NCBI GenBank assembly: GCA_964019135.1
Contig: OZ025265.1
Span: forward strand, 19,691,143 to 19,755,142
From: Arenicola marina
Lineage: Eukaryota; Annelida; Polychaeta; Arenicolidae
DNA length: 64,000 bases
Reading direction: 5' to 3'
How positions within the stretch are numbered: position 1 is the stretch's first letter; each line of letters opens with the position of its first letter. The notes under the pieces were generated by a model that was given only the letters and a program-made list of their open reading frames with translations, was not told the origin of the DNA and searched no databases. Both the position numbers and the translations under genes were made by a program. Positions 12,500-53,800 of this stretch are shown here, piece by piece.

Positions 12500-12739
12500 T
12501 CTGGTCGCAATATCGCTGCGAGCTATCTCTTGTCTTGTGGAACCTGTTCGGAAGATAAAGGTGTACACATATATTATACATATGGGGCACCTACAAACTG
12601 AATGAATTAAATTGGAAAGCAGGCCGTCAATGAAATGATCAGCGTAACTTTCGTGTACTTAATTTAGCGATGAAGGTGCAACGAGAGGCGTTATGCTTAG
12701 ACGGGAGACATGCTCTCTGGGCACTGCCAGCCGGAACAT

Positions 12740-26601: not shown

Positions 26602-26839
26602 TCAATTCCAAAGCATCACTTCATGCATACAAAAACCGGTCTGAGCGATAATAGGGCGCCGTGGTTCGCATACTGACCACGAGGAGGCGTTCTTCATCTT
26701 GCGGATCTCGCGCGTGGCCCACGTGGCCAGCATCTTGGTTTTGTTGATCTTGGAGCGACGTCCCTTGGTGATCAGGTTGCTGACTGGCTCCTTCTCCAGC
26801 AGAGCCAAGATAGCGGTGCCGAACGCCGTGCAGAGGTCA
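26602..26839 (-). CDS. KPNB1: KPNB1 last coding exon with C-terminal extension
   Basis: It encodes [20 protein letters not shown], then [20 protein letters not shown] and RKMKN, matching the end of human importin beta-1 (...ATKELRKLKNQA). Where human stops, this frame runs on for about 28 residues ([18 protein letters not shown]...) to a TGA at 26602. A possible donor TCGTG|GTCAGT lies just after KMKNASS, so the true protein may end through a small further exon. No AATAAA was found close downstream on this strand. Confidence 0.85.
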
Positions 26840-29800
26840 CTGAAGATCGAGTGGAAGGCGGGGATGAAAAGGGTGTTAGGAGAGATATGCAATGTTATAT
26901 TTTTTTTTTTCTTATAAATAATACAGTACAAGAATCAAAAGATAATTATACACATAGAAGATGGACCAGTGATTGCGCACTTCCAAACATGCCATTTCGG
27001 TATTTTCTACATATGCATTAGTATCAAACTTCTACCAGACAGATGCCTTTATGTATGACAGCTATATTGGCGTCTACATTGTAAAAATCTAAGTGATCTA
27101 ACCTTTTTTTCACTCAGTGCTAAATCACTGGTCCGAATACGCATAACTGTGTAATAACGTTATGTTATAACAAAAATATTTTGATCACAGAATACGATCG
27201 GTGTCACGATTAGTCAAAACTCGATTTTACTATCAGTTAGTAGGGACATTGTGCCACACTCGTTATTAGCAAATTTCAATATAAACTACATACATTTTAG
27301 TTCACTCTAAGAGTTTCATCTATTTCTCACCAGAAATGTCCATTCTATTTCTATCCGATGCTGCCCAGAAGATCATATGCTATCTCAGCCTTTTATCAGT
27401 GCTACATAAGCAATTTCTCAGTAGAAATTTCAGTCTATTTCCCCCCAGAAGTTTCATTCTATTCTATCCGATGCCACTCAGCTGCTCACGTTATCTCACC
27501 CTTTTCGATTGCACGTTATTCCGCGCACTACGAATGAGGATCTCTCACCAAAAGCAGAAGCTGAACTGTGGCCTCACGTGCATAGGTTAGCCGGCTACGA
27601 TGCTTACTCGAATAAGATCGCCCATCCTTTACATGATAACTTTAGCCGACTAAGCCCCGTAGTCAGCTAAACTACGTTCGTGCAATCAGCCACTGGTTAT
27701 ATAATGACTGCATTGGCCTATGCTCTCAGAGGCGGATTTTACGAACGCATTTAGCTAGTCCGCTAACGTTAACACGCCCAATTCTATTCGACTAAGCCCG
27801 TAGCCGGCTAAACTATGTATGTGAAATAGGCCACAGCTGGCGACGGCTGCACCATGTGTGTCTCACCCAATCAGGCCGCAGCTGGCGGCGATGACGGCGT
27901 CGTTGATGTCGTTGTCTTGCGCCAGGTGTTCCACGAACTGCAGCATGTGTGGCACGTGGGGCTGGACGATCTGCACGTCTGTAACGCACGACACAAGGAG
28001 CCATAAGGGACCGCGTCATACAGGGCGTTCCCATCGACATTCAAGCGAATTGAAGGGATGAAGCTATTGATGTTCTAGACCAACTATGTGCACAGATGGG
28101 CTAAACCGGGACCAGGCTGGAATGGTGGAGAGACCATTGAGGGTTTTCTCGGTATATTTCTAAATTTGCTTTTATCCTTTTTCCCGGTAATTACCGATGG
28201 ATTACATAAAACACGCCTAATATCTGATGGCCTGTACTGTGCATAATAAATTATGCCAATATTCAAATTAATTCACATATTAACATAATTTAATATACAA
28301 ATTATGTAATATAAATGAGTGATTTCCATATACATCTAGAACTTTTTTTCCCCGGTCTCGAATGGCGAGCTTGGCAGGCGACCTTGGCAGGTGACCTTGG
28401 CAGGTGACCTCGGCAGGTGACCTTGGCAGGTGACCTTGGCAGGTGACCTTGGCAGGTGACCTTCGCAGGTGACCTTGGCAGGACTCGACTACCCACCAGG
28501 CGAGGTGTCGTTGTCTCCCTTCAGGCCTTGCACGATGCCGGTGTAGGCCTCCAGGCACCCCTCGCGCAGCTCATTCAAGTAATCCACCATGTCGTAGTCA
28601 CTCTGAAACAAGCAGGGGGAGAACATGTTGGTGAACTGGCAAGTAATCCACCATGTCGTAGTCACTCTGAAACAAGCAGGAGGAGAACATGTTGGTGAAC
28701 TGGCAAGTAATCCACCATGTCGTAGTCACTCTGAAACAAGCAGGGGGAGAACATGTTGGTGAACTGGCAAGTAATCCACCATGTCGTAGTCACTCTGAAA
28801 CAAGCAGGGGGAGAACATGTTGGTGAACTGGCAAGTAATCCACCATGTCGTAGTCACTCTGAAACAAGCAGGAGGAGAACATGTTGGTGAACTGGCAAGT
28901 AATCCACCATGTCGTAGTCACTCTGAAACAAGCAGGAGGAGAACATGTTGGTGAACTGGCAAGTAATCCACCATGTCGTAGTCACTCTGAAACAAGCAGG
29001 AGGAGAACATGTTGGTGAACTGGCAAGTAATCCACCATGTCGTAGTCACTCTGAAACAAGCAGGGGGAGAACATGTTGGTGAACTGGCAAGTAATCCACC
29101 ATGTCGTAGTCACTCTGAAACAAGCAGGGGGAGAACATGTTGGTGAACTGGCAAGTAATCCACCATGTCGTAGTCACTCTGAAACAAGCAGGAGGAGAAC
29201 ATGTTGGTGAACTGGCAAGTAATCCACCATGTCGTAGTCACTCTGAAACAAGCAGGGGGAGAACATGTTGGTGAACTGGCAAGTAATCCACCATGTCGTA
29301 GTCACTCTGAAACAAGCAGGGGGAGAACATGGTGGTGAACTGGCAAGTAATCCACCATGTCGTAGTCACTCTGAAACAAGCAGGAGGAGAACATGTTGGT
29401 GAACTGGCAAGTAATCCACCATGTCGTAGTCACTCTGAAACAAGCAGGGGGAGAACATGTTGGTGAACTGGCAAGTAATCCACCATGTCGTAGTCACTCT
29501 GAAACAAGCAGGGGGAGAACATGGTGGTGAACTGGCAAGTAATCCACCATGTCGTAGTCACTCTGAAACAAGCAGGAGGAGAACATGGTGGTGAACTGGC
29601 AAGTAATACACCATGTCGTAGTCACTCTGAAACAAGCAGGGGGAGAACATGTTGGTGAACTGGCAAGTAATCCACCATGTCGTAGTCACTCTGAAACAAG
29701 CAGGAGGAGAACATGTTGGTGAACTGGCAAGTAATCCACCATGTCGTAGTCACTCTGAAACAAGCAGGGGGAGAACATGTTGGTGAACTGGCAAGTAATC

Positions 29801-32800
29801 CACCATGTCGTAGTCACTCTGAAACAAGCAGGAGGAGAACATGGTGGTGAACTGGCAAGTAATACACCATGTCGTAGTCACTCTGAAACAAGCAGGGGGA
29901 GAACATGTTGGTGAACTGGCAAGTAATCCACCATGTCGTAGTCACTCTGAAACAAGCAGGGGGAGAACATGTTGGTGAACTGGCAAGTAATCCACCATGT
30001 CGTAGTCACTCTGAAACAAGCAGGGGGAGAACATGTTGGTGAACTGGCAAGTAATCCACCATGTCGTAGTCACTCTGAAACAAGCAGGAGGAGAACATGT
30101 TGGTGAACTGGCAAGTAATCCACCATGTCGTAGTCACTCTGAAACAAGCAGGAGGAGAACATGGTGGTGAACTGGCAAGTAATCCACCATGTCGTAGTCA
30201 CTCTGAAACAAGCAGGGGGAGAACATGTTGGTGAACTGGCAAGTAATCCACCATGTCGTAGTCACTCTGAAACAAGCAGGAGGAGAACATGTTGGTGAAC
30301 TGGCAAGTAATCCACCATGTCGTAGTCACTCTGAAACAAGCAGGGGGAGAACATGTTGGTGAACTGGCAAGTAATCCACCATGTCGTAGTCACTCTGAAA
30401 CAAGCAGGGGGAGAACATGGTGGTGAACTGGCAAGTAATCCACCATGTCGTAGTCACTCTGAAACAAGCAGGAGGAGAACATGGTGGTGAACTGGCAAGT
30501 AATCCACCATGTCGTAGTCACTCTGAAACAAGCAGGGGGAGAACATGTTGGTGAACTGGCAAGTAATCCACCATGTCGTAGTCACTCTGAAACAAGCAGG
30601 AGGAGAACATGTTGGTGAACTGGCAAGTAATACACCATGTCGTAGTCACTCTGAAACAAGCAGGGGGAGAACATGTTGGTGAACTGGCAAGTAATCCACC
30701 ATGTCGTAGTCACTCTGAAACAAGCAGGAGGAGAACATGTTGGTGAACTGGCAAGTAATCCACCATGTCGTAGTCAGTCTGAAACAAGCAGGGGGAGAAC
30801 ATGTTGGTGAACTGGCAAGTAATCCACCATGTTGTAGTCACTCTGAAACAAGCAGGGGGAGAACATGGTGGTGAACTGGCAAGTAATCCACCATGTCGTA
30901 GTCACTCTCAAACAAGCAGGAGGAGAACATGGTGGTGAACTGGCAAGTAATACACCATGTCGTAGTCACTCTGAAACAAGCAGGGGGAGAACATGTTGGT
31001 GAACTGGCAAGTAATCCACCATGTCGTAGTCACTCTGAAACAAGCAGGAGGAGAACATGTTGGTGAACTGGCAAGTAATCCACCATGTCGTAGTCACTCT
31101 GAAACAAGCAGGGGGAGAACATGTTGGTGAACTGGCATGTAATCCACCATGTCGTAGTCACTCTGAAACAAGCAGGGGGAGAACATGGTGGTGAACTGGC
31201 AAGTAATCCACCATGTCGTAGTCACTCTGAAACAAGCAGGAGGAGAACATGGTGGTGAACTGGCAAGTAATACACCATGTCGTAGTCACTCTGAAACAAG
31301 CAGGGGGAGAACATGTTGGTGAACTGGCAAGTAATCCACCATGTCGTAGTCACTCTGAAACAAGCAGGGGGAGAACATAGTGGTGAACTGGCAAGTAATC
31401 CACCATGTCGTAGTCACTCTGAAACAAGCAGGGGGAGAACATGTCGGTGAACTGGCAAGTAATCCACCATGTCGTAGTCACTCTGAAACAAGCAGGGGGA
31501 GAACATGTTGGTGAACTGGCAAGTAATCCACCATGTCGTAGTCACTCTGAAACAAGCAGGAGGAGAACATGTTGGTGAACTGGCAAGTAATCCACCATGT
31601 CGTAGTCACTCTGAAACAAGCAGGAGGAGAACATGTTGGTGAACTGGCAAGTAATCCACCATGTCGTAGTCACTCTGAAACAAGCAGGAGGAGAACATGT
31701 TGGTGAACTGGCAAGTAATCCACCATGTCGTAGTCACTCTGAAACAAGCAGGGGGAGAACATGTTGGTGAACTGGCAAGTAATCCACCATGTCGTAGTCA
31801 CTCTGAAACAAGCAGGAGGAGAACATGTTGGTGAACTGGCAAGTAATCCACCATGTCGTAGTCACTCTGAAACAAGCAGGAGGAGAACATGTTGGTGAAC
31901 TGGCAAGTAATCCACCATGTCGTAGTCACTCTGAAACAAGCAGGAGGAGAACATGTTGGTGAACTGGCAAGTAATCCACCATGTCGTAGTCACTCTGAAA
32001 CAAGCAGGAGGAGAACATGGTGGTGAACTGGCAAGTAATCCACCATGTCGTAGTCACTCTGAAACAAGCAGGAGGAGAACATGTTGGTGAACTGGCAAGT
32101 AATCCACCATGTCGTAGTCACTCTGAAACAAGCAGGGGGAGAACATGTTGGTGAACAGGCAAGTAATCCACCATGTCGTAGTCACTCTGAAACAAGCAGG
32201 AGGAGAACATGTTGGTGAACTGGCAAGTAATCCACCATGTCGTAGTCACTCTGAAACAAGCAGGAGGAAAACATGTTGGTGAACTGGCAAGTGATCCACC
32301 ATGTCGTAGTCACTCTGAAACAAGCAGGAGGAGAACATGTTGGTGAACTGGCAAGTAATCCACCATGTCGTAGTCACTCTGAAACAAGCAGGAGGAGAAC
32401 ATGTTGGTGAACTGGCAAGTAATCCACCATGTCGTAGTCACTCTGAAACAAGCAGGAGGAGAACATGTTGGTGAACTGGCAAGTAATCCACCATGTCGTA
32501 GTCACTCTGAAACAAGCAGGGGGAGAACATGTTGGTGAACTGGCAAGTAATCCACCATGTCGTAGTCACTCTGAAACAAGCAGGGGGAGAACATGTTGGC
32601 GAACTGGCAAGTAATCCATCATGTCGTAGTCACTCTGAAACAAGCAGGAGGAGAACATGTTGGGGAACTGGCAAGTAATCCACCATGTCGTAGTCACTCT
32701 GAAACAAGCAGGAGGAGAACATGTTGGTGAACTGGCAAGTAATCCACCATGTCGTAGTCACTCTGAAACAAGCAGGGGGAGAACATGTTGGTGAACTGGC

Positions 32801-35800
32801 AAGTAATCCACCATGTCGTAGTCACTCTGAAACAAGCAGGAGGAGAACATGTTGGTGAACTGGCAAGTAATCCACCATGTCGTAGTCACTCTGAAACAAG
32901 CAGGAGGAGAACATGTTGGTGAACTGGCAAGTAATCCACCATGTCGTAGTCACTCTGAAACAAGCAGGAGGAGAACATGTTGGTGAACTGGCAAGTAATC
33001 CACCATGTCGTAGTCACTCTGAAACAAGCAGGAGGAGAACATGTTGGTGAACTGGCAAGTAATCCACCATGTCGTAGTCACTCTGAAACAAGCAGGGGGA
33101 GAACATGTTGGTGAACTGGCAAGTAATCCACCATGTCGTAGTCACTCTGAAACAAGCAGGAGGAGAACATGTTGGAGAACTGGCAAGTAATCCACCATGT
33201 CGTAGTCACTCTGAAACAAGCAGGAGGAGAACATGTTGGTGAACTGGCAAGTAATCCACCATGTCGTAGTCACTCTGAAACAAGCAGGGGGAGAACATGT
33301 TGGTGAACTGGCAAGTAATCCACCATGTCGTAGTCACTCTGAAACAAGCAGGAGGAGAACATGTTGGTGAACTGGCAAGTAATCCACCATGTCGTAGTCA
33401 CTCTGAAACAAGCAGGAGGAGAACATGTTGGTGAACTGGCAAGTAATCCCCCATGTCGTAGTCACTCTGAAACAAGCAGGAGGAGAACATGTTGGTGAAC
33501 TGGCAAGTAATCCACCATGTCGTAGTCACTCTAAAACAAGCAGGAGGAGAACATGTTGGTGAACTGGCAAGTAATCCACCATGTCGTAGTCACTCTGAAA
33601 CAAGCAGGAGGAGAACATGTTGGTGAACTGGCAAGTAATCCACCATGTCGTAGTCACTCTGAAACAAGCAGGAGGAGAACATGTTGGTGAACTGGCAAGT
33701 AATCCACCATGTCGTAGTCACTCTGAAACAAGCAGGAGGAGAACATGTTGGTGAACTGGCAAGTAATCCACCATGTCGTAGTCACTCTGAAACAAGCAGG
33801 AGGAGAACATGTTGGGGAACTGGCAAGTAATCCACCATGTCGTAGTCACTCTGAAACAAGCAGGAGGAGAACATGTTGGTGAACTGGCAAGTAATCCACC
33901 ATGTCGTAGTCACTCTGAAACAAGCAGGAGGAGAACATGTTGGTGAACTGGCAAGTAATCCACCATGTCGTAGTCACTCTGAAACAAGCAGGGGGAGAAC
34001 ATGTTGGCGAACTGGCAAGTAATCCACCATGTCGTAGTCACTCTGAAACAAGCAGGAGGAGAACATGTTGGTGAACTGGCAAGTAATCCGCCATGTCGTA
34101 GTCACTCTGAAACAAGCAGGGGGAGAACATGTTGGTGAACTGGCAAGTAATCCACCATGTCGTAGTCACTCTGAAACAAGCAGGGGGAGAACATGTTGGT
34201 GAACTGGCAAGTAATCCACCATGTCGTAGTCACTCTGAAACAAGCAGGGGGAGAACATGTTGGCGAACTGGCAAGTAATCCACCATGTCGTAGTCACTCT
34301 GAAACAAGCAGGAGGAGAACATGGTGGTGAACTGGCAAGTAATCCACCATGTCGTAGTCATTCTGAAACAAGCAGGAGGAGAACATGTTGGAGAACTGGC
34401 AAGTAATCCACCATGTCGTAGTCACTCTGAAAAAAGCAGGAGGAGAACATGTTGGTGAACTGGCAAGTAATCCACCATGTCGTAGTCACTCTGAAACAAG
34501 CAGGAGGAGAACATGTTGGTGAACTGGCAAGTAATCCACCATGTCGTAGTCACTCTGAAACAAGCAGGGGGAGAACATGTTGGTGAACTGGCAAGTAATC
34601 CACCATGTCGTAGTCACTCTGAAACAAGCAGGAGGAGAACATGTTGGTGAACTGGCAAGTAATCCACCATGTCGTAGTCACTCTGAAACAAGCAGGAGGA
34701 GAACATGTTGGTGAACTGGCAAGTAATCCACCATGTCGTAGTCACTCTGAAACAAGCAGGAGGAGAACATGTTGGTGAACTGGCAAGTAATCCACCATGA
34801 CGTAGTCACTCTGAAACAAGCAGGAGGAGAACATGTTGGTGAACTGGCAAGTAATCCACCATGTCGTAGTCATTCTGAAACAAGCAGGAGGAGAACATGT
34901 TGGTGAACTGGGAGAACTAGGGACGCTCTAACCTCGAGAGATCAAATCGCGACAAGGTCGAGGCAGGGTATTAACCAGGGACCCGCCTGCCCGTCGGCAC
35001 TTTCAATTTTTGCGGGCACTCCAGTGCTGCTTACGCGTCCAAAAGGGCCTTTTGGTAAAGAGGTTTAGAAGAAAAGCAAACCACTCAAAATTGTATAGGA
35101 CATCGAGAACTACTTTTATTTATAGGATTGTAAATTGCGAGCTCAAAATGCGGCCTCATCGACTGGCGCCATATTACGTGCGTACACTGAACATTTTGTT
35201 TTTACCAGTCAAAAGTTTAGCTGACAAAAAATTCTGGCTAACACCCTGCGTCGAGGTAGAGAGGGTTTGAACCAGCAAACCAGTTGTTCTGAAGCCCAGT
35301 GAGCAACTTACCAACTAAGATGCGGAGACTCACGTGGTGAAAAACCATTGGTTGGCATCCGACGGTCTGCATAAGACGATGTATTAGCCGGTTACTTTAG
35401 GGGATTTAAAAATTCCCATTTAATACGACGCATTTGGACCTGGGACTGAATCAGCCTAACTGAGAGGGACGGAGCGTGCCAGTCACCACAACTATGTCCC
35501 GTTGACGGGGCCATGGAGGTACCTACCCTGTCCACCTGGGCCTGGGAGGCCTGGTGCGGCGTGTTGAGCACCACCTCCAGGTACTCCTTTAACTCTAGGG
35601 CCATGGAGGTACCTACCCTGTAACTCCAGTACCACCTCCTGTTCTTCTTCAACCTACCCTGTCCACCTGGGCCTGGGAGGCCTGGTGCAGCCTGTTGAGT
35701 ACCACCTCCAGGTACTCCTTCAACTCTAGGGCAATGGAGACCTGGTGGAGCGTGTAGAGTACCACCTCCAGGTACTCCATTAACTCTAGGGCCATGGAGG

Positions 35801-38800
35801 TACCTACCCTGTCCACCTGGGCCTGGGAGGCCTGGTGGAGCGTGTTGAGTACCACCTCCAGTTTCTTCTTCAACTCTAGGGCCATGGAGGTACCTACCCT
35901 GTCCACCTGGGCCTGGGAGGCCTGGTGCAGCGTGTTCAGTACCACCTCCAGGTACTTCTTGAACTCGGGGCCGACTGCCAGCGCGATATCGCCAAAGACT
36001 GATAAGATCTGAGGCTTGACGGACCGGTGAACCTGCTCATTCTGAAACCAAAGACACAGACAACGGTACGTTAACAACGTCAACCCTCCTCCTCAGTGTG
36101 ATGTGAACAACGTAGTCAGCCTCGACCGATACACGGGCAGTCTGTTTCGCTGTTAGTTAATATTTACGAGGCTTGGGGTACATCAGGCGTGAAGATTATG
36201 GCGAATAGTATGGCTGGTTTATTGACGTATATAAGGCCGTCGGCACATATTACAAAAAAGGGTCCTATTTCATCTCGTGGAGATGGAGATGGAAGGGAAC
36301 ATGTGCACAAAATACATGTACAACAAACTATACATGAGAGAAACTAAAAAGTTTTTTTTAGCGTCGTTCGAAATTGGTACAAAGGCTATTGACTGTCAGT
36401 CATAACATGACATGAGATTATGGGATATATGTACAAATGATAATGAAACTTTAACAACCATTCCATAGTACGTAAGCTCTCTTTTTTTTCCAGGCGTGAT
36501 GTGAAAGAACTCGGCATTATACAGTAAACTCACCCCGAGATTTTCCAGTAGACTCATCATGATTTCATCGCAGAGAGGCAGAATCTTGTTGCTGAGAGCG
36601 CGGCACAAGTCTCCTACTAACCCAACGGCGGCCAGACACACCTATCAACAACAGATACACAGGGTGAGCACATGTAGAGGCACACATTGCAAACAGATAC
36701 ACACGGTGAACACATGTAGAGGCACACATCGCAAACAGATACACACGGTGAACACATGTAGGGGCACACATTGCAAACAGATACACACGGTGAACACATG
36801 TAGAGGCACACATTGCAAACAGATACACACGGTGAACACATGTAGAGGCACACATTGCAAACAGATACACACGGTGAACACATGTAGGGGCACACATTGC
36901 AAACAGATACACACGGTGAACACATGTAGAGGCACACATTGCAAACAGATACACACGGTGAACACATGTAGAGGCACACATTGCAAACAGATACACACGG
37001 TGAACACATGTAGAGGCACACATTGCAAACAGATACACACGGTGAGCACATGTTGAGGCACACATTGCAAACAGATACACACGGTGAGCACATGTAGAGG
37101 CACACATTGCAAACAGATACACACGGTGAACACATGTAGAGGCACACATCGCAAACAGATACACACGGTGAACACATGTAGGGGCACACATCGCAAACAG
37201 ATACACACGGTGAACACATGTAGAGGCACACATTGCAAACAGATACACACGGTGAACACATGTAGAGGCACACATTGCAAACAGATACACACGGTGAACA
37301 CATGTAGAGGCACACATTGCAAACAGATACACACGGTGAGCACATGTTGAGGCACACATTGCAAACAGATACACACGGTGAACACATGAAGAGGCACACA
37401 TTGCAAACAGATACACACGGTGAACACATGTAGAGGCACACATTGCAAACAGATACACACGGTGAACACATGTAGAGGCACACATTGCAAACAGATACAC
37501 ACGGTGAACACATGTAGAGGCACACATTGCAAACAGATACACACGGTGAACACATGTAGAGGCACACATTGCAAACAGATACACACGGTGAACACATGTA
37601 GGGGCACACATTGCAAACAAATACGCACGTTATCAAAAGCTATACATGTTATCAAAAGTAATCACGTTACCAAAAGATACACGTTATCAAATTATACAAT
37701 TTAGCAAAATATGTACTCCTTATCAAAAGATATACTCTTTATCAAAAGATACATGATACACATGATACAATTAGCCGATATACATATACGACAATTTACA
37801 CCTGGTCACATATACAACCAAAACGCATAAGCCAGAGTCTAGCGGACGGGACCATTTGATATCCAGGATGGGGGGCAAACAATGTCCATGGGTTGGACGA
37901 GGACCGAACCTTTTTTGTGACCATGGGGGGGGGGGGGGGGGGGGTCCTGAGATGGGGAGGCATGGCTTTTTTATCTGGAAAATGTATTTAGCTTAATAGT
38001 GCGAGGGCAGGAATTTTATCGTTAAGAAATGGGAAACGGATTTTTGAATTCGTTAATTCCACATATTCCTTATCCGACACAATGATATCTGACTTTACTC
38101 TGATTATCGGTACAAATATCTCACAAAGAGACGCCCATATCGACTGACAAAATGCCTTACCTGATACTCCTCGTAGTTCTTCAGCGCCACGGTTAGGAAG
38201 GGCTTAAAAGAGTCCATGTACTTCAAGAAGTTATCTCCCAACACTGAAAAAAACACAAATATCAGTTTTATTAGCACAGCGTTTTCATTCTCCATAGAAC
38301 GCCTTGACCCGTCATGGTCACATAATGTCACATTGGGCCGACGGTACGAGCGCTTTTCAACGAGGACACTTGATCTTACCAAGGAACTTCGGAGGCAGCA
38401 TTGGAAAGTTTTCCTATTTTGAATGCAAAGGGATTCTATACAAAATTGTAAACAGACACAATAGGCCGACCCAGGCTGCCAATCATTCACTGACGTCACT
38501 GTTGCTTTTATCCAATCATGTGGTGCAAAAAGGTGTACCACGTGGGTCGGAAAAACAAAGCCGCATCTCACTTTGTTGTCAGTTTCAGAGGTGAGTACTG
38601 CTCACTTGTACCTACCGCCAGTTCTGATTGTCAATTTCATATTCAAGATAAAGGAAAAAGGGCTCACGCGTGGGCGGGGCTTAGCTTGGAGAATGGATCT
38701 CTCTATTAACAGGCTGGTGGTGACAACCTACCCTCGATCAGCGTGGAGACGGCGAGCAAGGCATCTTCCTGGACACCTCCGGATTTGCCCTCGGCGCCGC

Positions 38801-41800
38801 TGAGCATCTGGAGCAGGGCGGCCATGATGGGGTCCGAAATCTGGGGCGCGTCCGCCGGGGACACCTTGCGGAGCACCGACTGCAGCGTGGCGCACAGCAA
38901 GCACTGCAGGTCGTTCAGCTGCACGCGGTCCGAGGTCGATTGGACGTGGCCCTGTGAATGGGTGGTTGGTTTGGTTTGTTGTATATTCAGGATGCTTTAA
39001 TCACGTTTGGTCATATCGCGTCAATGGGAGAGTGGAGCCATGTCCCCGGAGGTAACTCCCATATCTTTGCGAAGAAGGACATGGGATCTTTATCCTGCGA
39101 CCACACAGACATGGCCACAGCGGGGCTCGAACCACCAACCCACGCGCCGTTAGGCTATCAGGTGGCCAGAGCACTCAAGGCGAGGGCCCTGTGAATGGGT
39201 GGGTGGGGGTGGGAGGGCCCTGTGAATGGGTGGGTGGGTGGGGGTGGGAGGGATAGATCGATCGATCGTAGGGGGAGTGGTGGAGAGTTTAAGACTGGAT
39301 TTACATTTCTCACGATTAATAATAATAATGGCTTATTTTAAACTGTCGGCACAGACGGTACAAAATTGCAACGAACACATTTACACCGAGATCCAAATTG
39401 AACCTATGTAGCTTTTCATTTAAGACATATAAGGTTCTCTAGTGCCATCCGAAGATATAAAAAAAAAATTACAACATGATTTTGATTACGAACCACTCGC
39501 AATAGAACTACATTCATATCATAAGCAACCTCGAAAATCTTCATAAAAAAAATGGCGAATCTTATACCAAATGCCGTGTTTTACGCCACCTTTGTGCACA
39601 TGAAGGGCATAGTGGGCAAAGAAACGACCAGGACCCATGAAATAAGATTTAATAAAGCATTTTCGGGTACCAGGACGCGAACCCAGAACTTTGTGACCCG
39701 CAGTTCAGCCTGCTTACCAACAGCGACGGGTTTCCCTTTGAGTTTTACAGGCGCTCGTGATCCAGGACCAACTAACCTCCATCTGGAGCACCCTCTGGAG
39801 TCGCTCCAGGATCACCAGTGTAGTCCTTTGTACAGTTACATAGCAGTCCTAACAAAACAAACAAAATCCACATCAGTTAGGGACAGTTTTTACGTAACCT
39901 AACACTCGCGTATAGCAGCATCCACGTTCAACATCAATGATAAAATAGGCTAGCAACCATTGTGAATGTTAATAATATAAAGGCACAATTGGAAATAAAG
40001 TATTAACTAAGCATAATTAGTTAATGCAGGCGTACCAGTCGAAGTAAATAACCAGATTCAACAGCAGCTCTCAACTTTGGCTACTCGTCCTTTTTTCACG
40101 TCCAAAAACAACATATGACGACAGTGTAACAATTGCCTGGTCCTGAATGTAACGTACGGATTTTATTATGAAATCAGGGTTACGTAGATGAGCAATCAAC
40201 AAAAACACATTGCACGTTGTACACAGTTTTACTGTTTATGAACAGTTGTCACACTGACCGTTGGGCTATTTTTAACCAGTTCCATCAAAGCTTCGTATGC
40301 CGCGCTTCTCAAGTTGTGAACATTGCCATCAGTCCTATAATACAAAACAAAATTAATCATTACCCGCACTCAGCTGGCTATCATTGCCGATAATCCTACA
40401 GTACAGACTAAACAAACACAAACTCAGGCCGTGAGAAAACCAAACTGCGATTAAATTAACCGTTCAGTTAATGAGTTTAAGTCGTGAGTACAAGCAGCTA
40501 GAGGTTTGAGTTAAACTGTTTAAAATGGGTCGATCATGCGAATGACCTTCATATAGTGTAAGCTCAGGGAGAATACGGAATAACTGATTTATAAGGGAAT
40601 ACGAAACTAGAGATTAATGCGGGAATACGAAACTAGATTAATACGGGAATACGAAACTAGAGATTAATACGGTAATACGAAACTAGAGGTTAATGCGGGA
40701 ATACGAAACTAGAAATTAATACGGGAATACGAAACTAGAGATTAATACGGGAATACGAAACTAGAGATTAATACGAAACTAGAGATTAATACGAAACTAG
40801 AGATTAATACGGGAATACGAAACTAGAGATTAATACGGGAATACGAAACTAGAGATTAATACGGTAATACGAAACTAGAGATTAATACGGTAATACGAAA
40901 CTAGAGGTTAATACAGAAATACGAAACTAGAGATTAATACAGTAATACGTAACTAGAGGTTGATACGGGAATACGAAACTAGATTAATACGGGAATACGA
41001 AACTAGAGGTTAATACGGGAATACGAAACTAGAGATTAAGCCAGGTGTTTGTTCTCACCTGTCAGTGGTTTCCAGCAGTTTTTGGACGATGGGTTCGAAG
41101 TAGGAGGACAGGCAGCAGGTGGCTGGCTCTGTCTGGTCCTCGGCCAACTCCGCAGCCTCAAAGGCGGCCTCGGCAAGGCTGGAGAACGCCTGTAACATGG
41201 TGGGTTGGTTTATTTAGAATGCGCTAACCTCAATGTTCCCAGGTTGTATAAGTATTGGGACCATGGAAAGGGTCAAGGTAGAGAGGAGCCATGTTTCCGA
41301 GAGTAGGTTAAGCCCATATTATTTCCGAAGAAAGCCATGAGATCTTTGTCCTGCGCAGACATTTGCACGGGTGGGGTTCGACCCACGCGCCGACCGCCTG
41401 GGCTTGCGTAAGTACACTTATGTACACTAGAAAGTACACTTAAGTACTCTAGAAGTGTACTACTTAAGTTCACTTCGCTCTAACCCACTGAGCTCTCAGG
41501 TGACCAGATCACTCAAGGCGAGCGTTCAAACCCACTGAGCTCTCAGGTGGCCAGAGCACTCAAAGCGAGCGCTCTAACCCACTGAGCTCCCAGGTGGCCA
41601 GAGCACTCAAGGCGAGCGCTCTAACCCACTGAGCTCCCAGGTGGCCAGAGCACTCAAAGCGAGCGTTCAAACCCACTGAGCTCTCAGGTGGCCAGATCAC
41701 TCAAGGCGAGCGCTCTAACTCACTGAGCTCCCAGGTAGCCAGAGCACTCCAGGCGAGCGTTCAAACCCACTGAGCTCTCAGGTGGCCAGAGCACTCAAAG

Positions 41801-44800
41801 CGAGCGTTCAAACCCTCTGAGCTCCCAGGTGGCCAGAGCACTCAAAGCGAGCGTTCAAACCCACTGCGCTCCCAGGTGGCCAGATCACTCAAAGCGAGCG
41901 CTCTAACCCACTGAGCTCCCAGGTGGCCAGAGCACTCACGGCGAGCGCTCTAACTCACTGAGCTCCCAGGTGGCCAGATCACTCAAAGCGAGCGCTCTAA
42001 CTCACTGAGCTCCCAGATGGCCAGAGCACTCAAGGCGAGCGCTCTAATCCACTGAGCTCCCAGGTGGCCAGATCACTCAAAGCGAGCGCTCTAACCCACT
42101 GAGCTCCCAGGTGGCCAGAGCACTCAAGGCGAGCGTTCAAACCCACTGAGCTCTCAGGTGGCCAGAGCACTCAAAGCGAGCGCTCTAACCCACTGAGCTC
42201 CCAGGTGGCCAGAGCACTCACGGCGAGCGCTCTAACTCACTGAGCTCCCAGGTGGCCAGATCACTCAAAGCGAGCGCTCTAACCCACTGAGCTCCCAGGT
42301 GGCCAGATCACTCAAAGCGAGCGCTCTAACTCACTGAGCTCCCAGGTGGCCAGAGCACTCAAGGCGAGCGCTCTAACCCACTGAGCTCCCAGGTGGCCAG
42401 ATCACTCAAAGCGAGCGCTCTAACTCACTGAGCTCCCAGGTGGCCAGAGCACTCAAGGCGAGCGCTCTAACCCACTGAGCTCCCAGGTGGCCAGAGCACT
42501 CAAGGCGAGCGCTCTAACCCACTGAGCTCCCAGGTGGCCAGAGCACTCAAGGCGAGCGCTCTAACCCACTGAGCTCCCAGGTGGCCAGAGCACTCAAAGC
42601 GACCGCTCTAACCCACTGAGCTCAATACCCAGCAGACGTTGGAAGCGACCCTGGGCTCGGCGGTCGCTGGGGGGGGGGGGGGGGGGTAGCGCACACACAC
42701 ATACCCAGCAGACGTTGGAGGCGACCCTGGGCTCGGCGGTCAGACCCTCGACCAGGGCGTGCAGGAGGGGGTTGAGGCACTGCTCGTTGATGACGGCCTC
42801 GGGGAGGACCTCGCACACGCGGCCCACCGTCCAGGCCGCCGTGTCCCGCACCACCACGCTGGGGTCCTTCAGCAGCTCGATCAGCATCGGCATCGCCTGC
42901 TCCACGATCGGCTTAAGGTTATCCGGGTTCGGACCCTCCAGGATCGAGCCTAAAATACGGAATCTGGAGATGAGTGAGGGGGACTCGGCTGCGGGTAGTG
43001 ACGCCGCGGGTAGTGGCGTCGCGTATTGGGTGACATTTTAGTACTGATTATTTTGTGAACTTTTTTTATGAACATATTTTTTTGTATTTTTTTTGGGGAG
43101 GATGGGAGGGGGGGGTGGGGGAGAAGGCATTTTGTTGTTATATGAATTTTTCCCATTAAAAAAATACAAATGGGGGAGAGTTGAAAATGGGGTAATATTT
43201 TCGTGAATATATTTCAACGGAGAGGGTCTCAAAATCATGTATTTTTAATAAAGGGGACAACTGCGCATTTTACTTGGTGTCACTTTCAGACCCTATATTG
43301 ATGGCCCTAACCAATATGACTGGCTGTAAACTCTTGGATGTGGTCATTGGGAACATCTAAAGGTATCTACCGTTATAGTTGTGCACAGTTAGTCTGTGCC
43401 ATATACGACCGTATCCATATCACACTACACACCCCGCCCCGCCGCATCCACTGACACACACACACACCCACACCCACACACAGACGCCCCGCCCCCACCC
43501 CACTTTACCCTCCCCCCCTACCCCGCCACGTCCCTCCCCCCCCCCCACCCCAACGCTCTCCGCCCCCCACGACACTTACCGAAAGCCATGACCGCGGCGT
43601 CCCGGTACCGCCAATCAGGGCTCTTGATGTGTTCTTTAACAAAGGGTAAAACATGGGGCACAATGTCATCCTCGCAGCACGTCGCCATCAGCATCAGACA
43701 CACACCGACCGCCTTGCAGGGGTTCCACTCATCATCATCGTCATACTCCTCCTGAAACACACCCACAGACACCTCATGTCAGCAGTCAGCCCTGCACTGT
43801 GACCACACCCACAGACACCTCATGTCAGCAGTCAGCCCTGCACTGTGACCACACCCACAGACACCTCATGTCAGCAGTCAGCCCTGCACTGTGACCACAC
43901 CCACAGACACCTCATGTCAGCAGTCAGCCCTGCACTGTGACCACACCCACAGACACCTCATCTCAGCAGTCAGCCCTGCACTGTGACCACACCCACAGAC
44001 ACCTCATGTCAGCAGTCAGCCCTGCACTGTGACCACACCCACAGACACCTCATGTCAGCAGTCAGCCCTGCACTGTGACCATACCCACAGACACCTCATG
44101 TCAGCAGCCAGCCCTGCACTGTGACCACACCCACAGGCACCTCATGTCAGCAGCCAGCCCTGCACTGTGACCACACCCACAGACACCTCATGTCAGCAGT
44201 CAGCCCTGCACTGTGTCCACACCCACAGACACCTCATGTCAGCAGCCAGCCCTGCACTGTGACCACACCCACAGACACCTCATCTCAGCAGTCAGCCCTG
44301 CACTATGACCACACCCACAGCCATCTCATGTCAGCAGTCAGCCCTGCACTGTGACCACACCCATAGACACCTCATGTCAGCAGTCAGCCCTGCACTGTGA
44401 CCACACCCACATCATGTCAGCAGTCCGCCCTGCACTGTGACCACACCCACAGACACCTCATGTCAGCAGTCAGCCCTGCACTGTGACCACACCCACAGAC
44501 ACCTCATGTCAGCAGTCAGCCCTGCACTGTGACCACACCCACAGACACCTCATGTCAGCAGTCAGCCCTGCACTGTGACCACACTCACAGACACCTCATG
44601 TCAGCAGTCAGCCCTGCACTGTGACCACACCCACAGACACCTCATGTCAGCAGCCAGCCCTGCACTGTGACCACACCCACAGGCACCTCATGTCAGCAGT
44701 CAGCCCTGCACTGTGACCACACCCACAGACACCTCATGTCAGCAGTCAGCCCTGCACTGTGACCACACCCACATCATGTCAGCAGTCAGCCCTGCACTGT

Positions 44801-47800
44801 GACCACACCCACAGACACCTCATGTCAGCAGTCAGCCCTGCACTGTGACCACACCCACAGGCACCTCATGTCAGCAGTCAGCTCTGCACTGTGACCACAG
44901 CCACAGACACCTCATGTCAGCAGTCAGCCCTGCACTGTGACCACACCCACAGACACCTCATGTCAGCAGTCAGCCCTGCACTGTGACCACACCCACAGAC
45001 ACCTCATGTCAGCAGTCAGCCCTGCACTGTGACCACACCCACAGACACCTCATGTCAGCAGTCAGCCCTGCACTGTGACCACACCCACAGACACCTCATG
45101 TCAGCAGCCAGCCCTGCACTGTGACCACACCCACAGACACCTCATGTCAGCAGTCAGCCCTGCACTGTGACCACACCCACAGACACCTCATGTCAGCAGT
45201 CAGCCCTGCACTGTGACCACACTCACAGACACCTCATGTCAGCAGTCAGCCCTGCACTGTGACCACACCCACAGCCATCTCATCTCAGCATTGTGACCAC
45301 ACCCACAGACATCTCATGTCAGCAGCCAGCCCTGCACTGTGACCACACCCACACACACCTCATGTCAGCAGTCAGCCCTGCACTGTGACCACACCCACAG
45401 ACACCTCATCTCAGCAGTCAGCCCTGCACTGTGACCACACCCACAGACACCTCATGTCAGCAGTCAGCCCTGCACTGTGACCACACCCACAGACACCTCA
45501 TGTCAGCAGTCAGCCCTGCACTGTGACCACACCCACAGACACCTCATCTCAGCAGCCAGCCCTGCACTGTGACCACACCCACAGACACCTCATGTCAGCA
45601 GTCAGCCCTGCACTGTGACCACACCCACAGACACCTCATCTCAGCAGTCAGCCCTGCACTGTGACCACACCCACAGACACCTCATGTCAGCAGTCAGCCC
45701 TGCACTGTGACCACACCCACAGACACCTCATGTCAGCAGTCAGCCCTGCACTGTGACTACACCCACAGACACCTCATGTCAGCAGTCAGCCCTGCACTGT
45801 GACCACACCCACAGACACCTCATGTCAGCAGCCAGCCCTGCACTGTGACCACACCCACAGACACTTCATGTCAGCAGTCAGCCCTGCACTGTGACCACAC
45901 CCACAGACACCTCATGTCAGCAGTCAGTCCTGCACTGTGACCACACCCACAGACACCTCATGTCAGCAGTCAGCCCTGCACTGTGACTACACCCACAGAC
46001 ATCTCATCTCAGCATTGTGATCACACCCACAGACATCTCATCTCAGCATTGTGACCACACCCACAGGCATCTCATCTCAGCAGCCAGCCCTGCACTGAGA
46101 GACCACACCCACAACAACATGTCCAGTCCATCCATCGCTTAGGGCAACATGCCCAGTCCATCCATCTCTTAGGGCAACATGCCCAGTCCATCCATCGCTC
46201 AGGGCAACATGCCCAGTCCATCCATCGCTTAGGGCAACATGCCGTCCATCCATCGCTTATGTCCAGTCCACCACTAGTGTTCAAGTCAATAAGGAGTCCA
46301 TCTGCCTATGGACTGCCGTTATTGACTAAAGCTAAGAAGCCCAGTCCATCCGTCCACACACAAATCATATCAGAAAGTCAGCAACACAGCCAGTGCAATC
46401 ACCGGCAAGTGAAGTAAGCTCGACAACGGAAAAGTCAATCAGCAATTCAATGAGTGAAGATGATAAGTCAGTTTGACCCCCTTGTGAGCTTGCCTTCCCT
46501 CCACTTCAAACACACACACTGTACTCTCCTCTTTTTTCTTCCACTCCTTTCTCACCCCTCTCGCGAGTTCGCTTTCAATTCATTCCTCCTTCGCCACCTC
46601 TTTCCTATCCTTATAAGCACCTCCACGCCACAACCTTACACGGTTTTCACCCTTCCCCAAACAAGGCTGTCTTGATAGGCCTGTGATTGACATCTCACGA
46701 AATAAATAGGGATAAAGTAGGGCTACTTGTGCCAAAAAAGCAGGGAAAAAGTAGGGCATTCTGATGACAATTAGCTACGCCTTTTCTGAATATTTATTTT
46801 CCGAGATGACTTTTACCCTTACCACAGAATGAATCAATTATTAATCAGATACCAGGCAAAATAACATGCATTCCAGTGCCACAGAGTAGGTATTATACAG
46901 TAGAACACCTATTATGTGCCAGTACCCAATGCTATCCGTCATCGAGCATCAATCAGACACTTTTGGCTTGATCCTGATGTACCAGATTTCTTTCAAACAA
47001 TGGGTGCCTTAAAGGGAACCGCCAGCATGGCCTCTAACGCTGCTTTACCGATTCATATAATACCCAATGGTCTATCCTCCAAATTACAGAATTTTTCGTC
47101 CTATCTATAGCTCACAATAAAATTTAGAAGTGACCGCCGGGCACGATTTCGCCGCCTAACCAGGCGTCAGCCCTCTTTGGAGGTGTGTCCGCGATTGACC
47201 AATCAGGAGGCGATACTCTAATTTATTCAAACCGGAAATTGCGCCTATTGTGTGAGCAAAACAAGAGCGCGTGATCATCGCTAATCTAAAGAGCTGCGAT
47301 TCTAACTCTAATTATGGCATAGTTGCGGAGTCAATCGTCGCAAGACGTATATCCATTTTGTTTGGACGGTACTTTTCTATGAAACACTAAGATCTTGCGC
47401 TACCGCGCGGCTTGGAACTGCCGCTGTTCATCTGTAAATCGCGGCCCTGATATCTCTCTCTGCGAGTGATAACGTAAGGCGGTGCCACATGAGTAGTCAC
47501 AATACGCGTCACTGCTCCCGGCAAAATGGCGCTCTGCTTGACATTGCTGGGGGCGGGTTGCCTTAATTTTTTTCTCCTTACCAGTCGGCCGAAACGAAGT
47601 GTTAACACTCGCCAATTGAATTTAAAGATGCAAACTTTCGGTGCAGATCGCCATTAAATTAGGTTGGACACGTGCTTTAAATGTCATCTGGTCAAATCTT
47701 AGAAATTTCTACGGGAGTAGTAAAAAAAAAGTGGGAACGAAATAAAAAAAAGTACCGAATAAAATAGGAAAGTAGGGAATGCCTAAACAAGGTAGTAATA

Positions 47801-50800
47801 AAAGTAGGAACGAAATAAAAAAGTAGTGAAAAAATAGGAAAGCAGGGAGAGCCTGAACAAGGTAGTAAGAAAAGTAGAGACGAAATAAAAAAAGTAATGA
47901 AAAAATTAGAAAAGTAGGGAGAGTCTAAAAAAAGTAGTGAAAAAGTATTTCAGGAAAGATCAATCACAGGCCTGCAACTCATTGAGCGTGAAAACTATTG
48001 AGCGTGAGAACTATTGAGCGTGAGAACTCATTGAGCGTGAGAACTCATTGAGCGTGAGAACTCATTGAGCGTGAGAACGCATTAAACGTGGCAATACATC
48101 ACAGGTGCACGGCTCATCAACGACTTAAACAAAAAGTTTATGACTAATCCTTCATTTAAGGGATCTATCACACGACTTGCAATCATATACCGCTAATCTT
48201 AGGTAGAATATGGCCCCCAAACCTCACCGTTGATTTTCCACCACTGACCAGCCATCACCCATCATATTTCTGTGATGAGTCGTGAACACCGATGGCACAC
48301 CCGAAATATATAAGAGCTCCACAAAATGCACGCACTGGCCTGGAAAACTGACCTGTTTGGCCAGCGTCTGAGTGAGGATGGGAACCAGATACTGTAGGGC
48401 ACCTTTAGCGTAGAAGCGGCTGCTCCTTTCTGGGGGTCTACCCTGCTCTTGTGCCTGAATAAAAAAGAATAAGCAATTTCAGAAAACAGATACATGTACA
48501 CACTGATTGCGAAATTCGTCTTTTGTCAGTATCCAACGTAACGCCCGATAAATCCTATATTTAGCGCTAAATTCATTTGCGTAGACCAAGTATGGTGATG
48601 AATACTGGCTTTGGGCCCTAACAAACCAATATGGACTGTACTGAGTCATCCAGAGCTTTGTCGTGGAATACCATGAGGGCCAGGGTTGTGCCACTGTGGG
48701 CAGTTCTGCGTTAGGACAAGAGCACATGTTAGCCGCAGCAACCTTTATGACCCTAATGAAAAGAATTGGTGTTTTAGGCCGCTTTTGTGAACACAAGAGC
48801 TCTACTGGGCCAAGGAACCTCCCGGCACGATGAAGGATGCACGGATGAAACATCCTTAGTTTAGGCTTCCGGGACCTATTTGTACCCTAGTGCGCTAACC
48901 AGTACACCAGAGAGGATTCGAACCCGGAACTTATTGATCTGAGGTCTAGTACGTTAACCACTACACCAGGGAGGCCCCCAGGACCTATTGATCCGAGGTC
49001 TAGTGCGCTAACCACTACACCAGGGAGGCCTCCAGGACCTATTGATCTGAGGTCTAGTGCGCTAACCACTGCACCAGGAAGGCCCCCAGGACCTATTGAT
49101 CTGTGGTCTGGTGCGCTAACCACTACACCAGGGAGGTCCCCAGGACCTATTGATCTGCGGTCTAGTACGTTAACCACTACAGCAGGGAGGCCCGCCAGGA
49201 CCTATTGATCTGCGGTCTAGTGTGCTAACCACCACACCAGGGAGGCCCTAGGACCTATTGGTCTGCGGTCTAGTGCGTTAACCACTACACCAGGGAGGCC
49301 CCAGGACCTATTGATCTGCGGTCTAGTGTGCTAACCACCACACCAGGGAGGCCCCAGGATCTATAGATCTGCGGTCTAGTGCGTTAACCACTACACCAGA
49401 GAGGATTCGGACCCAAGACCTATTGATCTGCAGTCTAGTGCGTTAACCACTACAGCAGAGGATTCGAACCCAACACCTATTGATCTACGGTCTAGTGCGT
49501 TAACCACTACAGCAGAGAGGATTTGAATCCAGGACCTATTGATCTGCGGTATTGACCCCCCCCCCCCACCCCGCCCCGCCTGATCACCCTAACAGCCTGT
49601 TACTGCAGGCCATACCTCGGCGGCCTCTATAGACAGGTCGACTTCCTCGTCACACACTGACGACCAGAACTCCACACCCTGCAGCGCCACCTCGTCTACG
49701 TCACTCTTCATCGCCTCCATGGTGATCTGGAGCAAACAAACAAAATCAATCGCAACAGTCCCCGCAATAACTTGACATCTGTCGCAACCAAACATGCTAT
49801 GTAGAACATACTTTTCACAAGTTAATGTAGTTCTATTACTGGGACAATAAAAGTTTGTTACGTTAGTCTAACAATGAATTGTAATAATATATATGGAGAA
49901 ACAGAAAGGGAAGTAATCACCTTTACAAGACCAGAATATGCAATCATATATCGATCATCGAGTGAATGAACACTGACAGCAGTCGATGCTTGAAAGTATA
50001 GATCATTGCAAACAATTCTTCCCTTTCCTTGTCATGCCATCAAGGTAACTTCAGAAGAAACAGACCCCTTCAGAGATCAATCTAGTTACTTTTTTCTTAT
50101 TTTTTTAAGTGTGTGTTTATTACACATGCGTCAAATATAAGAATTTCGTACCTTAAATAGATGAAAAAAAACACATCCTAAATTGCAAATTATATGGGGA
50201 TTCGAGGTCGAAAAAAAAGCAACAAAATTTATGGTTACTTAATTTTACTCATGGTTAATAAATAAGGCATATATTCATGTATATTCGTATACTCACGGCA
50301 AAAAGGGCAGGCCCCATGTAATGTTCCATATATTGGTAGTAGAGGGACATTATTTTGACAAGACACTGTAGAGCGGCCACTCTGACTTGTGTGTCAGAGC
50401 TCTGTGTGGTCTCACAAACAACTTGCATGATGAAATGGCGTTCGGACTGAAAACAAAACGAGCACAAACACATTTTAAATACAAATAAAACGGTACCATT
50501 CATTAGACCTAGAACCCAAGTCGTTTATTCAATGAATTATGGATATTTCGATATGAGGATCGATTTGCAAACCTAACCTAACCATTCCTGTCTCTAACTG
50601 CAGGTCCTAGTGAACAATTTAAACTGTGAAATCGACAGAAATATATATTTTACTTCTTTGAGTCACATGAAAAATGCATATAATAGGAGTACCAACAGAT
50701 TTAAGTGTCCTTTGTTTAAATACAAGGCATTGACACTGTCATCCATCGATTGACTAATATGATAACCAAACAGGCTCATCACTCACCTCAATATCAAAGT

Positions 50801-53800
50801 TGGCTCGGGTAAATTCAAGAGAGTTGAGTAGGGCGTTGGTGGCTGCCAGTTTAACGTGATTACTGGAACATGATTGAAAAGTTGCATGCACATTTTGATG
50901 CTTGAAAGCCCCTCGTGATAAATAGCAATTGGCGGAACACCTCACAAACTGCTCATACAGCAGTTTTTGACCTCTGCAATGAGCTCTCAAATATTTTAAT
51001 GGACACATCGTTTCATCTGATTTGTATAAACTCCTTTGAGAAACGCATTCGTTCGCAAATATGACTCCACGTTAAGCAGTAAAACACGGCACCAATTTCA
51101 AAATTTGACGACGCAGTACACGAGAAAACCACATCAGGCCAAGCAGCAATCTTCCGCTTTTCGGTACGTGTCCCTGTACCTATAAAAGGTAGTGTCTACT
51201 CATTTTACTATTCTGTCCATGACCTTAAATCCTATGGTATTGCCATTGCTTGCCTTGAGGCTTTATTTAGAAAAGTGTGCTATCGGTAGTTTTAATCAAG
51301 ACTGACCTGGGTTCTTCCTTTTTCATGCCGTGTACAATAGCAGTCAAAATGGCGTTGGACTGAGTCTGCAGGATTTCAGGATCCTAGAAGAAACCACAAT
51401 ATTTAGGTGAAATCCAGACTGAATAGACGTTTTTCAAACACATTGAGCACCAGAATATCATTTTTTAGTAAACCAGATATACCGGTAGTTATGCAGAAGA
51501 GGGTGGAAAAATACCTAAGTAAAGTTACCAAAGCCACTAACAGAAAGGCAGTTTTATTTTCCTAATTTCACCTGTTGAGCAAGATAAAAAACTACCCATC
51601 AAACATTCATGGCAAAAAAGAAAACATCTTAAATAAGTTTCTGAGTTGATAATGAAGAAGCTTTTTTAGATCACGAAACATTATGATCATGTGCTATTTT
51701 AGGCCACCTTTTGGCACACATAGGCAAAAACAAAACAAAATGCCCAACAAAAGATTTCTTTTGCATAATGATATTAAAAAAAAAAAAAAAAATATTCAAA
51801 TATAGATCAACGTAGATTTTTAAATTGAAACAAAGTTATTTATTTTATTTAACAATGACAAATTGAAACTCACAATATCGACACAGATGTAGCCGATTGC
51901 CTCCAGCGAGGATTCCTTCATCATCTCTGTGCTGCCTTGGTTGGTGACATTCTGCGTGAGGATCTGCATCAGGTCTGGCCAGAGGCCCGGCGGCAGCTCG
52001 GCACAGGCTATGTAGGCCACGCACTGGGCCGCCGTGCTGGGCCGCAAGGTTTCCGTACCCAGGGTCTCCAATACCTGTGGGATATTAATTAAATAATCTG
52101 CACAACAGATAATTTTGTGCACAATCACTGATGTGATTTCTATATACATGTACCGGTAGGTTAGAGAATAAAGACACACCGGGTATACATACATTGTTAC
52201 TAAATCAGCAGTCATAAAAAGTTTTCACAAAAAAATTGATGTCACCAAACAAAAAAAATCAAATAGAAAACAATGATAAAAGTACCTTATTAAGTTGGCT
52301 TGAACATCAAGCATCTTCTACATAATATCCCCATGTTCTGAACTCACATTTTTCTTTATATGAAGTTTGGCATCATCAGGAAATTGCAGCCAGCGCTGCT
52401 GGTACTGGAGTCGTATTGTCTGGTCTTTGGAATATAGTGCATTCTTTAACTGAATTCCAGCCTGCATTCGGGCCACAGGACTGTTACCCCCATGCTTCAG
52501 GACATCAGACAGTTGTTTCAACAACTCTGGCTGTAAAATAAATAGTCATGTACAGTATAATTTCAGCACCTAAAAGTAAATAAACGGTTTAACATTCTTG
52601 CATATAATTTTATTTAGCTTTAAACTTGACACCTTGGAAACTAACAATGACTAGCAGTAATTTGTGCTGACATGTGAGAATATCACTGATGATATAAAAA
52701 GTTTAACAGACATGGAAAGAAATGTGAAAGAGTGCAAAAGAGACACCCCTAAATGAGAACAAATTAGTGACAGCCAAGTAACATGAATAATATCATGGAT
52801 AATACTTACCAAGTTTTGCTGTGCTGCTTGTTCAAGGAACTGTTGGGCAGTTTCTAATTCGGTCTTATCTGAAAAAAAGATACAAGGATTTTTTTTCAAA
52901 TAGAACCTTTAGTTACTGAGAAGTTAAAGTTTTATACCTCTATGTTGAGGCTTGACACATTTTTATTTGTTTAACATATAGAGAACAAAATGTATGCAGC
53001 TCTTGGCACCTTATATAATTTCATTAAAGAAATACAACTTTTAAAGAAAATATTTTTTTTTACAGTAAATCTTGAAGAATTGCTGAACTTCCTCCATTTA
53101 GCAATATTATTGTCTTAATGCTTCTCATCTATTGTATCAGGTAAAAAAGCTAGCAATTATGTTGCCTTCAAAAGCATTGTTCCCTCTCCCTCTTTAGGTC
53201 CTGATCATGTTAATAATTACAGAATGAAATACAAAGCAACAGTAGTATGAAATATTGTATTATTATTATGCATAGGCTATAAATAATAGGATACCCATTT
53301 AAAGTTAGAAAAATTATCAATTTAATGTATTGCAACTTTTTGGACATGAAAGATATTTTCAGACAGGATATCAGTATCATTAATTATTATTATTCTTATT
53401 GTTTATTTTGTACGAAGGATACAACGAGTATTAAACTTAGTCTTGCTTCTCCCGTCACTGATTTTCAGACCGGTTGCAACAAATATGTAGAAACTACTGG
53501 CAGAAATGTGAGTACAGTACTCAGAGATACAGTTGGTTGCTTGGTTATTCAGGACACTTTAACCACTTTTGGTCATACCACGTCAATGGGAGAAGGAAGG
53601 GAGAGTGAAGCCATGTCCCCGGGGGTAACCCCCTACTCTTTACTACTCCCTACCCCCTACATGGCCACAGCAGGGCTCAAACTACCAATTCACATACTGT
53701 TAGGCTCTCAGGTGGACAGAGCACTCAATGCGAGTGCTCTAGCCCACTGAGCTATAGCGCTGACCCTCAACTGGCACAGAAAGGGCAACAGGCGTTAGGG

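Follow-up and report, generated by a model that had tools for sequence, protein, structure and literature searches.

In the annelid Arenicola marina, intron 18 of the importin beta-1 gene KPNB1 ends in 99 tandem copies of its own acceptor site. The gene is on the minus strand of the stretch of 64,000 nucleotides analysed here (the window, to which all coordinates refer unless a contig is named), which is part of contig OZ025265.1 (C20) of an 867-Mb assembly of 762 contigs. The repeat unit spans the exon-intron boundary, and the splice signals are retained in many of the units. Tandem repeats across exon-intron boundaries have been described in amphioxus, where they are called mirages (PMC3087553), and we consider the KPNB1 array to be an extreme mirage, one that stays largely silent as the acceptor adjacent to the exon prevails, a reading to which we give a probability of a little over three in four. 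The original prediction, made from the sequence alone, had recognised the array and stated that no named precedent was known, but the amphioxus mirages (PMC3087553, PMC3902484) are one.

The KPNB1 model has 21 coding exons (26602..57287) and gives a protein of 901 residues. It was obtained by spliced alignment of a probe protein. All 20 introns are GT-AG, the protein matches solved importin beta-1 over residues 1-874 with 1456 bits, and Pfam assigns importin-beta families to it; the tail beyond residue 874 is uncertain. The assignment to KPNB1, the strand and the exon numbers 18 and 19 in the original prediction all agree with this model. All 12 genome matches to a C-terminal stretch of 531 residues fall at this locus, and a second KPNB1 was not found in the 867-Mb assembly in this search. 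This argues that the native acceptor works and that normal splicing occurs. KPNB1 is essential in the animals that have been studied.

Exon 18 (144 bp, 35898..36041) has its native donor, AGG/GTAGGT, at 35898, and is followed by intron 18 of 7295 bp (28603..35897), with four donors at its 5' end and the 99 acceptors at its 3' end. Exon 19 (106 bp, 28497..28602) begins at 28602, which is the native acceptor of intron 18 and belongs to unit 99 of the array.

Tandem Repeats Finder (TRF) gives the acceptor array a period of 64, 99.0 copies, 98% matches, 0% indels and a score of 12091. It occupies 28576..34911 on the minus strand, and its 6336 bp are exactly 99 x 64; the units are head to tail, and when cut at fixed 64-bp steps they remain in exact register. 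The number of units and the exact spacing are thus as originally predicted, and the predicted span of 28577..34910 needed correction only at its ends. In each unit 37 intron bases, with a branch-like TTCAC, the pyrimidine tract and the CAG of the acceptor, lead into 27 bases from the start of exon 19, where 26 had been counted before. The claim that nearly all copies keep the splice signal is borne out, the AG being unchanged in 99/99 units and the preceding C present in 97/99. The branch-like A is kept in 92/99 units and changed in the other 7, and the T-G-A of the stop codon discussed below is invariant in all 99. There are 25 distinct unit types, with the two commonest making up 62/99 units. 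Units 1 and 2, which are farthest from the exon, are of private types, and unit 99 at the exon edge is of a common type. We looked for a higher-order repeat structure and rejected it, as there is just a weak lag-5 periodicity (z 2.4). When the host assembly was queried with three units there were at least 43 matches, all of those reported being within the KPNB1 array.

Splicing into an upstream copy is predicted to be unproductive in every case. For 97 of the 98 upstream acceptors the frame would meet a stop after 22 codons, as had been predicted for all of them, and for the remaining one after 20 codons. The frames of all 98 end early, and the full-length importin beta-1 reading frame is obtained only from the last unit, also as predicted. 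The distance from the stop to the last exon junction is 216 nt or more for all 98, and by the usual rule transcripts with such early stops upstream of exon junctions are targets for nonsense-mediated decay. With an acceptor score matrix built from the other 19 introns of KPNB1, which is a small training set, 97/98 upstream acceptors equal or exceed the native one in score. The possibility that units contain donors or microexons of their own was rejected, the best donor within a unit scoring 2.4 as against 7.0-11.8 for real donors.

The mutations within the array give no clear indication of selection. All 10 of the exonic mutation types are nonsynonymous, with 86% expected in the absence of constraint, and thus no coding constraint is visible in the exon parts of the units. 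There are 5 mutation types in the 21 positions of the pyrimidine tract and splice core and 17 in the 43 positions elsewhere. Purifying selection on the upstream splice signals and selection to kill them were both considered, and neither is visible; 22 mutation types are too few to demonstrate either protection or loss of the signals.

The donor of exon 18 is also amplified, which is new here and absent from the original prediction, so that both ends of intron 18 are affected. The donor array (35527..35966, minus strand, from TRF and a search for boundary copies) has four copies with their last exon bases at 35898 (native), 35808, 35658 and 35527, and the same 9-mer, AGG/GTAGGT, is present in all four. 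Use of the copies at +90 and +240 nt would be in frame and open, adding 30 or 80 residues, and that at +371 nt shifts the frame. With a criterion of at least 75% identity over 40 bp, further boundary copies were found at 3/40 KPNB1 boundaries, namely the donor and acceptor of intron 18 and the donor of intron 11. The reversed-query control gave 0/40, and at comparison positions the same search gave 10/400 in exon interiors, 205/400 in introns and 3/400 in introns outside the listed arrays.

To put the KPNB1 arrays in context we surveyed 90 exons elsewhere in the genome, comprising 30 of 35 Adaptin_N, 30 of 77 Myosin_head and 30 of 133 Kinesin matches. The Kinesin set was taken in table order, leaving out contigs C390, C536 and C504 and matches with internal stops, and the other two sets were unfiltered. 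Some of the exons share genes and are not fully independent, and the match ends are only approximate exon ends. The automatic test found further copies at 12/90 donor ends and 4/90 acceptor ends (Fisher p 0.064). After curation by reading the sequences there were boundary-spanning arrays at 9/90 donor ends (L015, L037, L051, L058, L071, L072, L079, L084 and L098) and 2/90 acceptor ends (L089 and L098; p 0.057). The upstream copies in L089 have diverged, with an AG that is displaced from the native place. Curation removed L046, L068 and L087, which have an array at or near the donor in which the exon-end copy is unclear, and L023 and L097, in which the array is away from the boundary; a 4.7-copy acceptor array in L035 was left uncounted as it belongs to a neighbouring boundary. 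A first, coarser scan had flagged 3/30 adaptin and 6/30 myosin exons, and its rows were dropped. Copies of the donor 16-mer in view number up to 28 (L015), 25 (L051) and 24 (L037); in L015 and L051 the array continues up to the last base of the retrieved stretch, and in L037 it comes to within 5 bases of this limit.

Two of the surveyed exons have features of their own. The kinesin exon L098 (C14:21551447-21552305) carries arrays at both ends, the upstream acceptor array having TRF periods of 32 and 38 among others and the downstream donor array a 61-bp unit that includes 42 exon bases. In the myosin exon L058 (C7:32814139-32814321) the donor-side unit of 37 bp has a pyrimidine-preceded AG and a GT, and by eye each copy resembles a 12-nt microexon.

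We considered whether there might be an element targeted to boundaries, and rejected this. The same automatic test applied to intronic GT sites 200 bp inside introns was positive at 25/180 with a reach of 330 and 26/180 with a reach of 1450, so that arrays at donor ends (12/90) are no commoner than at GT sites in general and no special targeting of boundaries is called for. For the first 60 exons array cover drops towards the exon, being 27% at a distance of 800-1500 bp and 9% at one of 0-25 bp, and within exons it is 6% in the outer 20 bases and 1.7% in the interiors. The boundary arrays thus look like by-products of a minisatellite-rich genome.

There is however a difference between the two kinds of boundary. 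For the 90 exons, the mean array cover in the first 25 intron bases is 4.4% on the acceptor side and 15.3% on the donor side, with 4 acceptor and 14 donor discordant exons (sign test p 0.031). The corresponding p values are 0.093 at 100 bp and 0.74 at 350 bp. If the KPNB1 boundaries are added to the curated counts there are donor arrays at 11/110 and acceptor arrays at 3/110 (p 0.050). The asymmetry was sought after the data had been seen, and it is suggestive rather than firm that acceptor edges are hit less than donor edges and that acceptor arrays are disfavoured.

The history that we propose is as follows. A 64-bp stretch across the junction of intron 18 and exon 19 would have been duplicated in tandem, and would have grown to 99 copies through unequal exchange or slippage. 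On this view the array is one result of the excess of minisatellites throughout this genome, and these strike exon edges as well. Exon 18 is presumably joined to the exon-adjacent acceptor, with the 98 upstream copies removed with the intron. That acceptor is probably chosen because the splicing machinery treats the 106-bp exon 19 as a unit, bounded by this acceptor and by the exon's own donor. Any leak into the upstream copies would lead to a stop upstream of exon junctions, and decay of the transcript would be expected.

Silence is supported by the finding of only one KPNB1, by the boundary arrays in other conserved genes (adaptin, myosin and kinesin), by the lack of visible coding constraint in the exon parts of the units, and by the amphioxus mirages, which are reported not to disturb splicing. 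Several points weigh on the other side. The upstream copies are transcribed first and 97/98 of them match or better the native acceptor in score, so they should be favoured. The shortage of acceptor arrays relative to donor arrays suggests that they carry a cost, and the precedent globin mirages had only 3 and 6 units in the part of the account available (PMC3087553). Of the two functions originally offered, a silent array and a decoy field that tunes dosage, silence appears to be the better supported, the tuning of dosage being possible but unsupported.

In a bolder reading the upstream acceptors would be used often enough to divert a share of transcripts into decay, and this share would depend on the length of the array, making array length a modifier of dosage for the only importin beta-1 gene found. 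More generally, this annelid would tolerate donor arrays freely and purge acceptor arrays, since transcription reaches a copied acceptor ahead of the native one, and the KPNB1 array would be a costly or useful exception. We think this unlikely. Also unlikely is the proposal of a decoy field, in which some transcripts, at a constant or a regulated level, are spliced into upstream units and decay on account of the stop, with array length tuning importin beta-1. The strength of the upstream acceptors is in its favour, as are the early stops at all 98 alternative junctions, with their distance of 216 nt or more from the last junction, and the invariance of the AG and of the T-G-A of the stop in 99/99 units. 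However invariance of a few bases is to be expected at 98% identity, the candidate branch A is mutated in 7/99 units, there is no sign of selection, with mutations found in the pyrimidine tract and splice core as well, and the same kind of array is found in unrelated genes.

It is quite improbable that the repeats are a reservoir of ready splice sites for new introns, exons or in-frame extensions. This idea was put forward for the amphioxus globins in the part of the paper available (PMC3087553), and the open, in-frame exon 18 donor copies with their 30 or 80 additional residues would suit it, but the 64-bp acceptor units yield no in-frame product, with 98/98 running into a stop, and no donor within a unit comes near to the real ones. 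We give very little credence to inflation or mis-joining of a shorter array by the assembler, as while long near-identical arrays are hard to assemble, this one of 6.3 kb fits within a single long read, has 25 unit types, those of units 1 and 2 being private, only weak lag-5 periodicity and 99 units in exact 64-bp register without indels, and other genes carry arrays of the same kind.

With regard to other boundaries of KPNB1, at the intron 11 donor (42605..42740, minus strand) the last exon base is at 42705 and the second copy is at 42629, with 30/40 bases identical. Intron 11 also has an array of 47 bp x 24 (41476-42623), and its unit by eye resembles dispersed sequence near 39160 and in the surveyed exon L039. 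The array of 42 bp x 23 in intron 16 (36650..37629, minus strand) stops by TRF 8 bp before exon 17 (36641); its units align across the native acceptor, with a consensus that lacks the AG. For intron 14, which has its native acceptor at 38951, the acceptor core CACCCATTCACAG/GGCC recurs in two additional short copies at 39182..39245 on the minus strand, seen by eye and one of them also aligned. An array of 46 bp x 50 in intron 9 (43758..46014, minus strand, TRF) is intronic only, stopping 6 bp before exon 10 (43751).

Tandem arrays with a period of at least 10 cover 34.5% of the window, as against 7.9% and 2.1% of two flanking 10-kb stretches. Away from the KPNB1 exons there is a 45-bp array at 14157-18528 which has indels. 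It would amount to about 96 units on the assumption that TRF, in reporting 32.1 copies of 135 bp, counted three units as one. On the minus strand at 8423-12658 there is an open frame of 1411 residues from stop to stop, in which a coding minisatellite of 21 bp x 87 (10608-12440), in frame and open throughout, gives 7-residue repeats like EAVNTAG; a Mab-21 C-terminal domain and TPR motifs come after it. Within the window there were no matches to Rfam families at gathering thresholds, and no tRNA genes were found by scanning. Elsewhere in the assembly the small contigs C390, C536, C504 and C149 have kinesin-like or adaptin-like matches in which the internal stops are TAG or TAA only; they may be retrocopies, or foreign DNA that uses a different genetic code. 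The mitochondrial contig has 13 protein genes, identified by eye and all on one strand, and their order is that of the annelid ground pattern. Among the matches listed for its COX1 (120 of 8000 scored) the nearest is Pilargis wolfi, with 91% identity, and Saccocirridae and Phyllodocida come next. An amphioxus host, which the mirage literature had suggested, was therefore rejected in favour of an annelid near Phyllodocida.

Studies of how the spliceosome picks one acceptor among several equal ones have usually relied on minigenes designed to carry two or three sites. KPNB1 intron 18 is a natural test of it, with 99 near-identical sites, 97/98 decoys at or above the native score and a donor that has been copied too. 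If only the last acceptor is used then exon-side context must override both site strength and the order of transcription, and if upstream acceptors are used then array length may set KPNB1 dosage. Boundary arrays have so far been described in amphioxus, and our sample suggests that an annelid has many of them as well, with acceptors spared more than donors. Such sites may defeat gene prediction programs and the mapping of short reads.

NAGNAG and other tandem acceptors compete for one donor as the KPNB1 copies do, with sites only a few bases apart, whereas in KPNB1 whole 3' splice regions are copied at 64-bp intervals. A search of the open-access literature by titles and the openings of abstracts, aimed at annelid cases and also made more widely, found no splice-site-spanning arrays outside amphioxus, which is weak evidence of absence. 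The earthworm metallothionein gene (PMC12783039) is, in the part of the account available, another annelid gene with large intronic tandem arrays, and also has exon 4 duplications, but its monomers of about 180 bp lie within an intron and the KPNB1 array lies across a splice site.

The closest counterparts of the KPNB1 array are the amphioxus mirages. Mirages there can affect both 5' and 3' boundaries, and are known for Adh3, TnC, the globins BflGb6 and BflGb9 (PMC3087553) and PGBD5, the last added by PMC3902484, which cites Adh and TnC and has splicing undisturbed. As in KPNB1, AG or GT is kept in many copies, and the repeats are outside the mature coding sequence. The Adh3 units are of 10-72 bp, a range that includes the 64-bp unit of KPNB1. 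In contrast the numbers of copies are very different, BflGb6 having 6 and 3 units in its two haplotypes and KPNB1 having 99. The hosts also differ, being a cephalochordate and an annelid, and the occurrence of arrays at both ends of one intron and at 9/90 sampled donor ends is unlike what is given in those accounts of amphioxus. For the amphioxus globin and Adh genes reverse transcription PCR (RT-PCR) suggests normal splicing although many units retain AG or GT (PMC3087553), and normal mRNA is also reported for Adh and TnC (PMC3902484), while the KPNB1 array is known here from the genomic sequence of one assembled haplotype.

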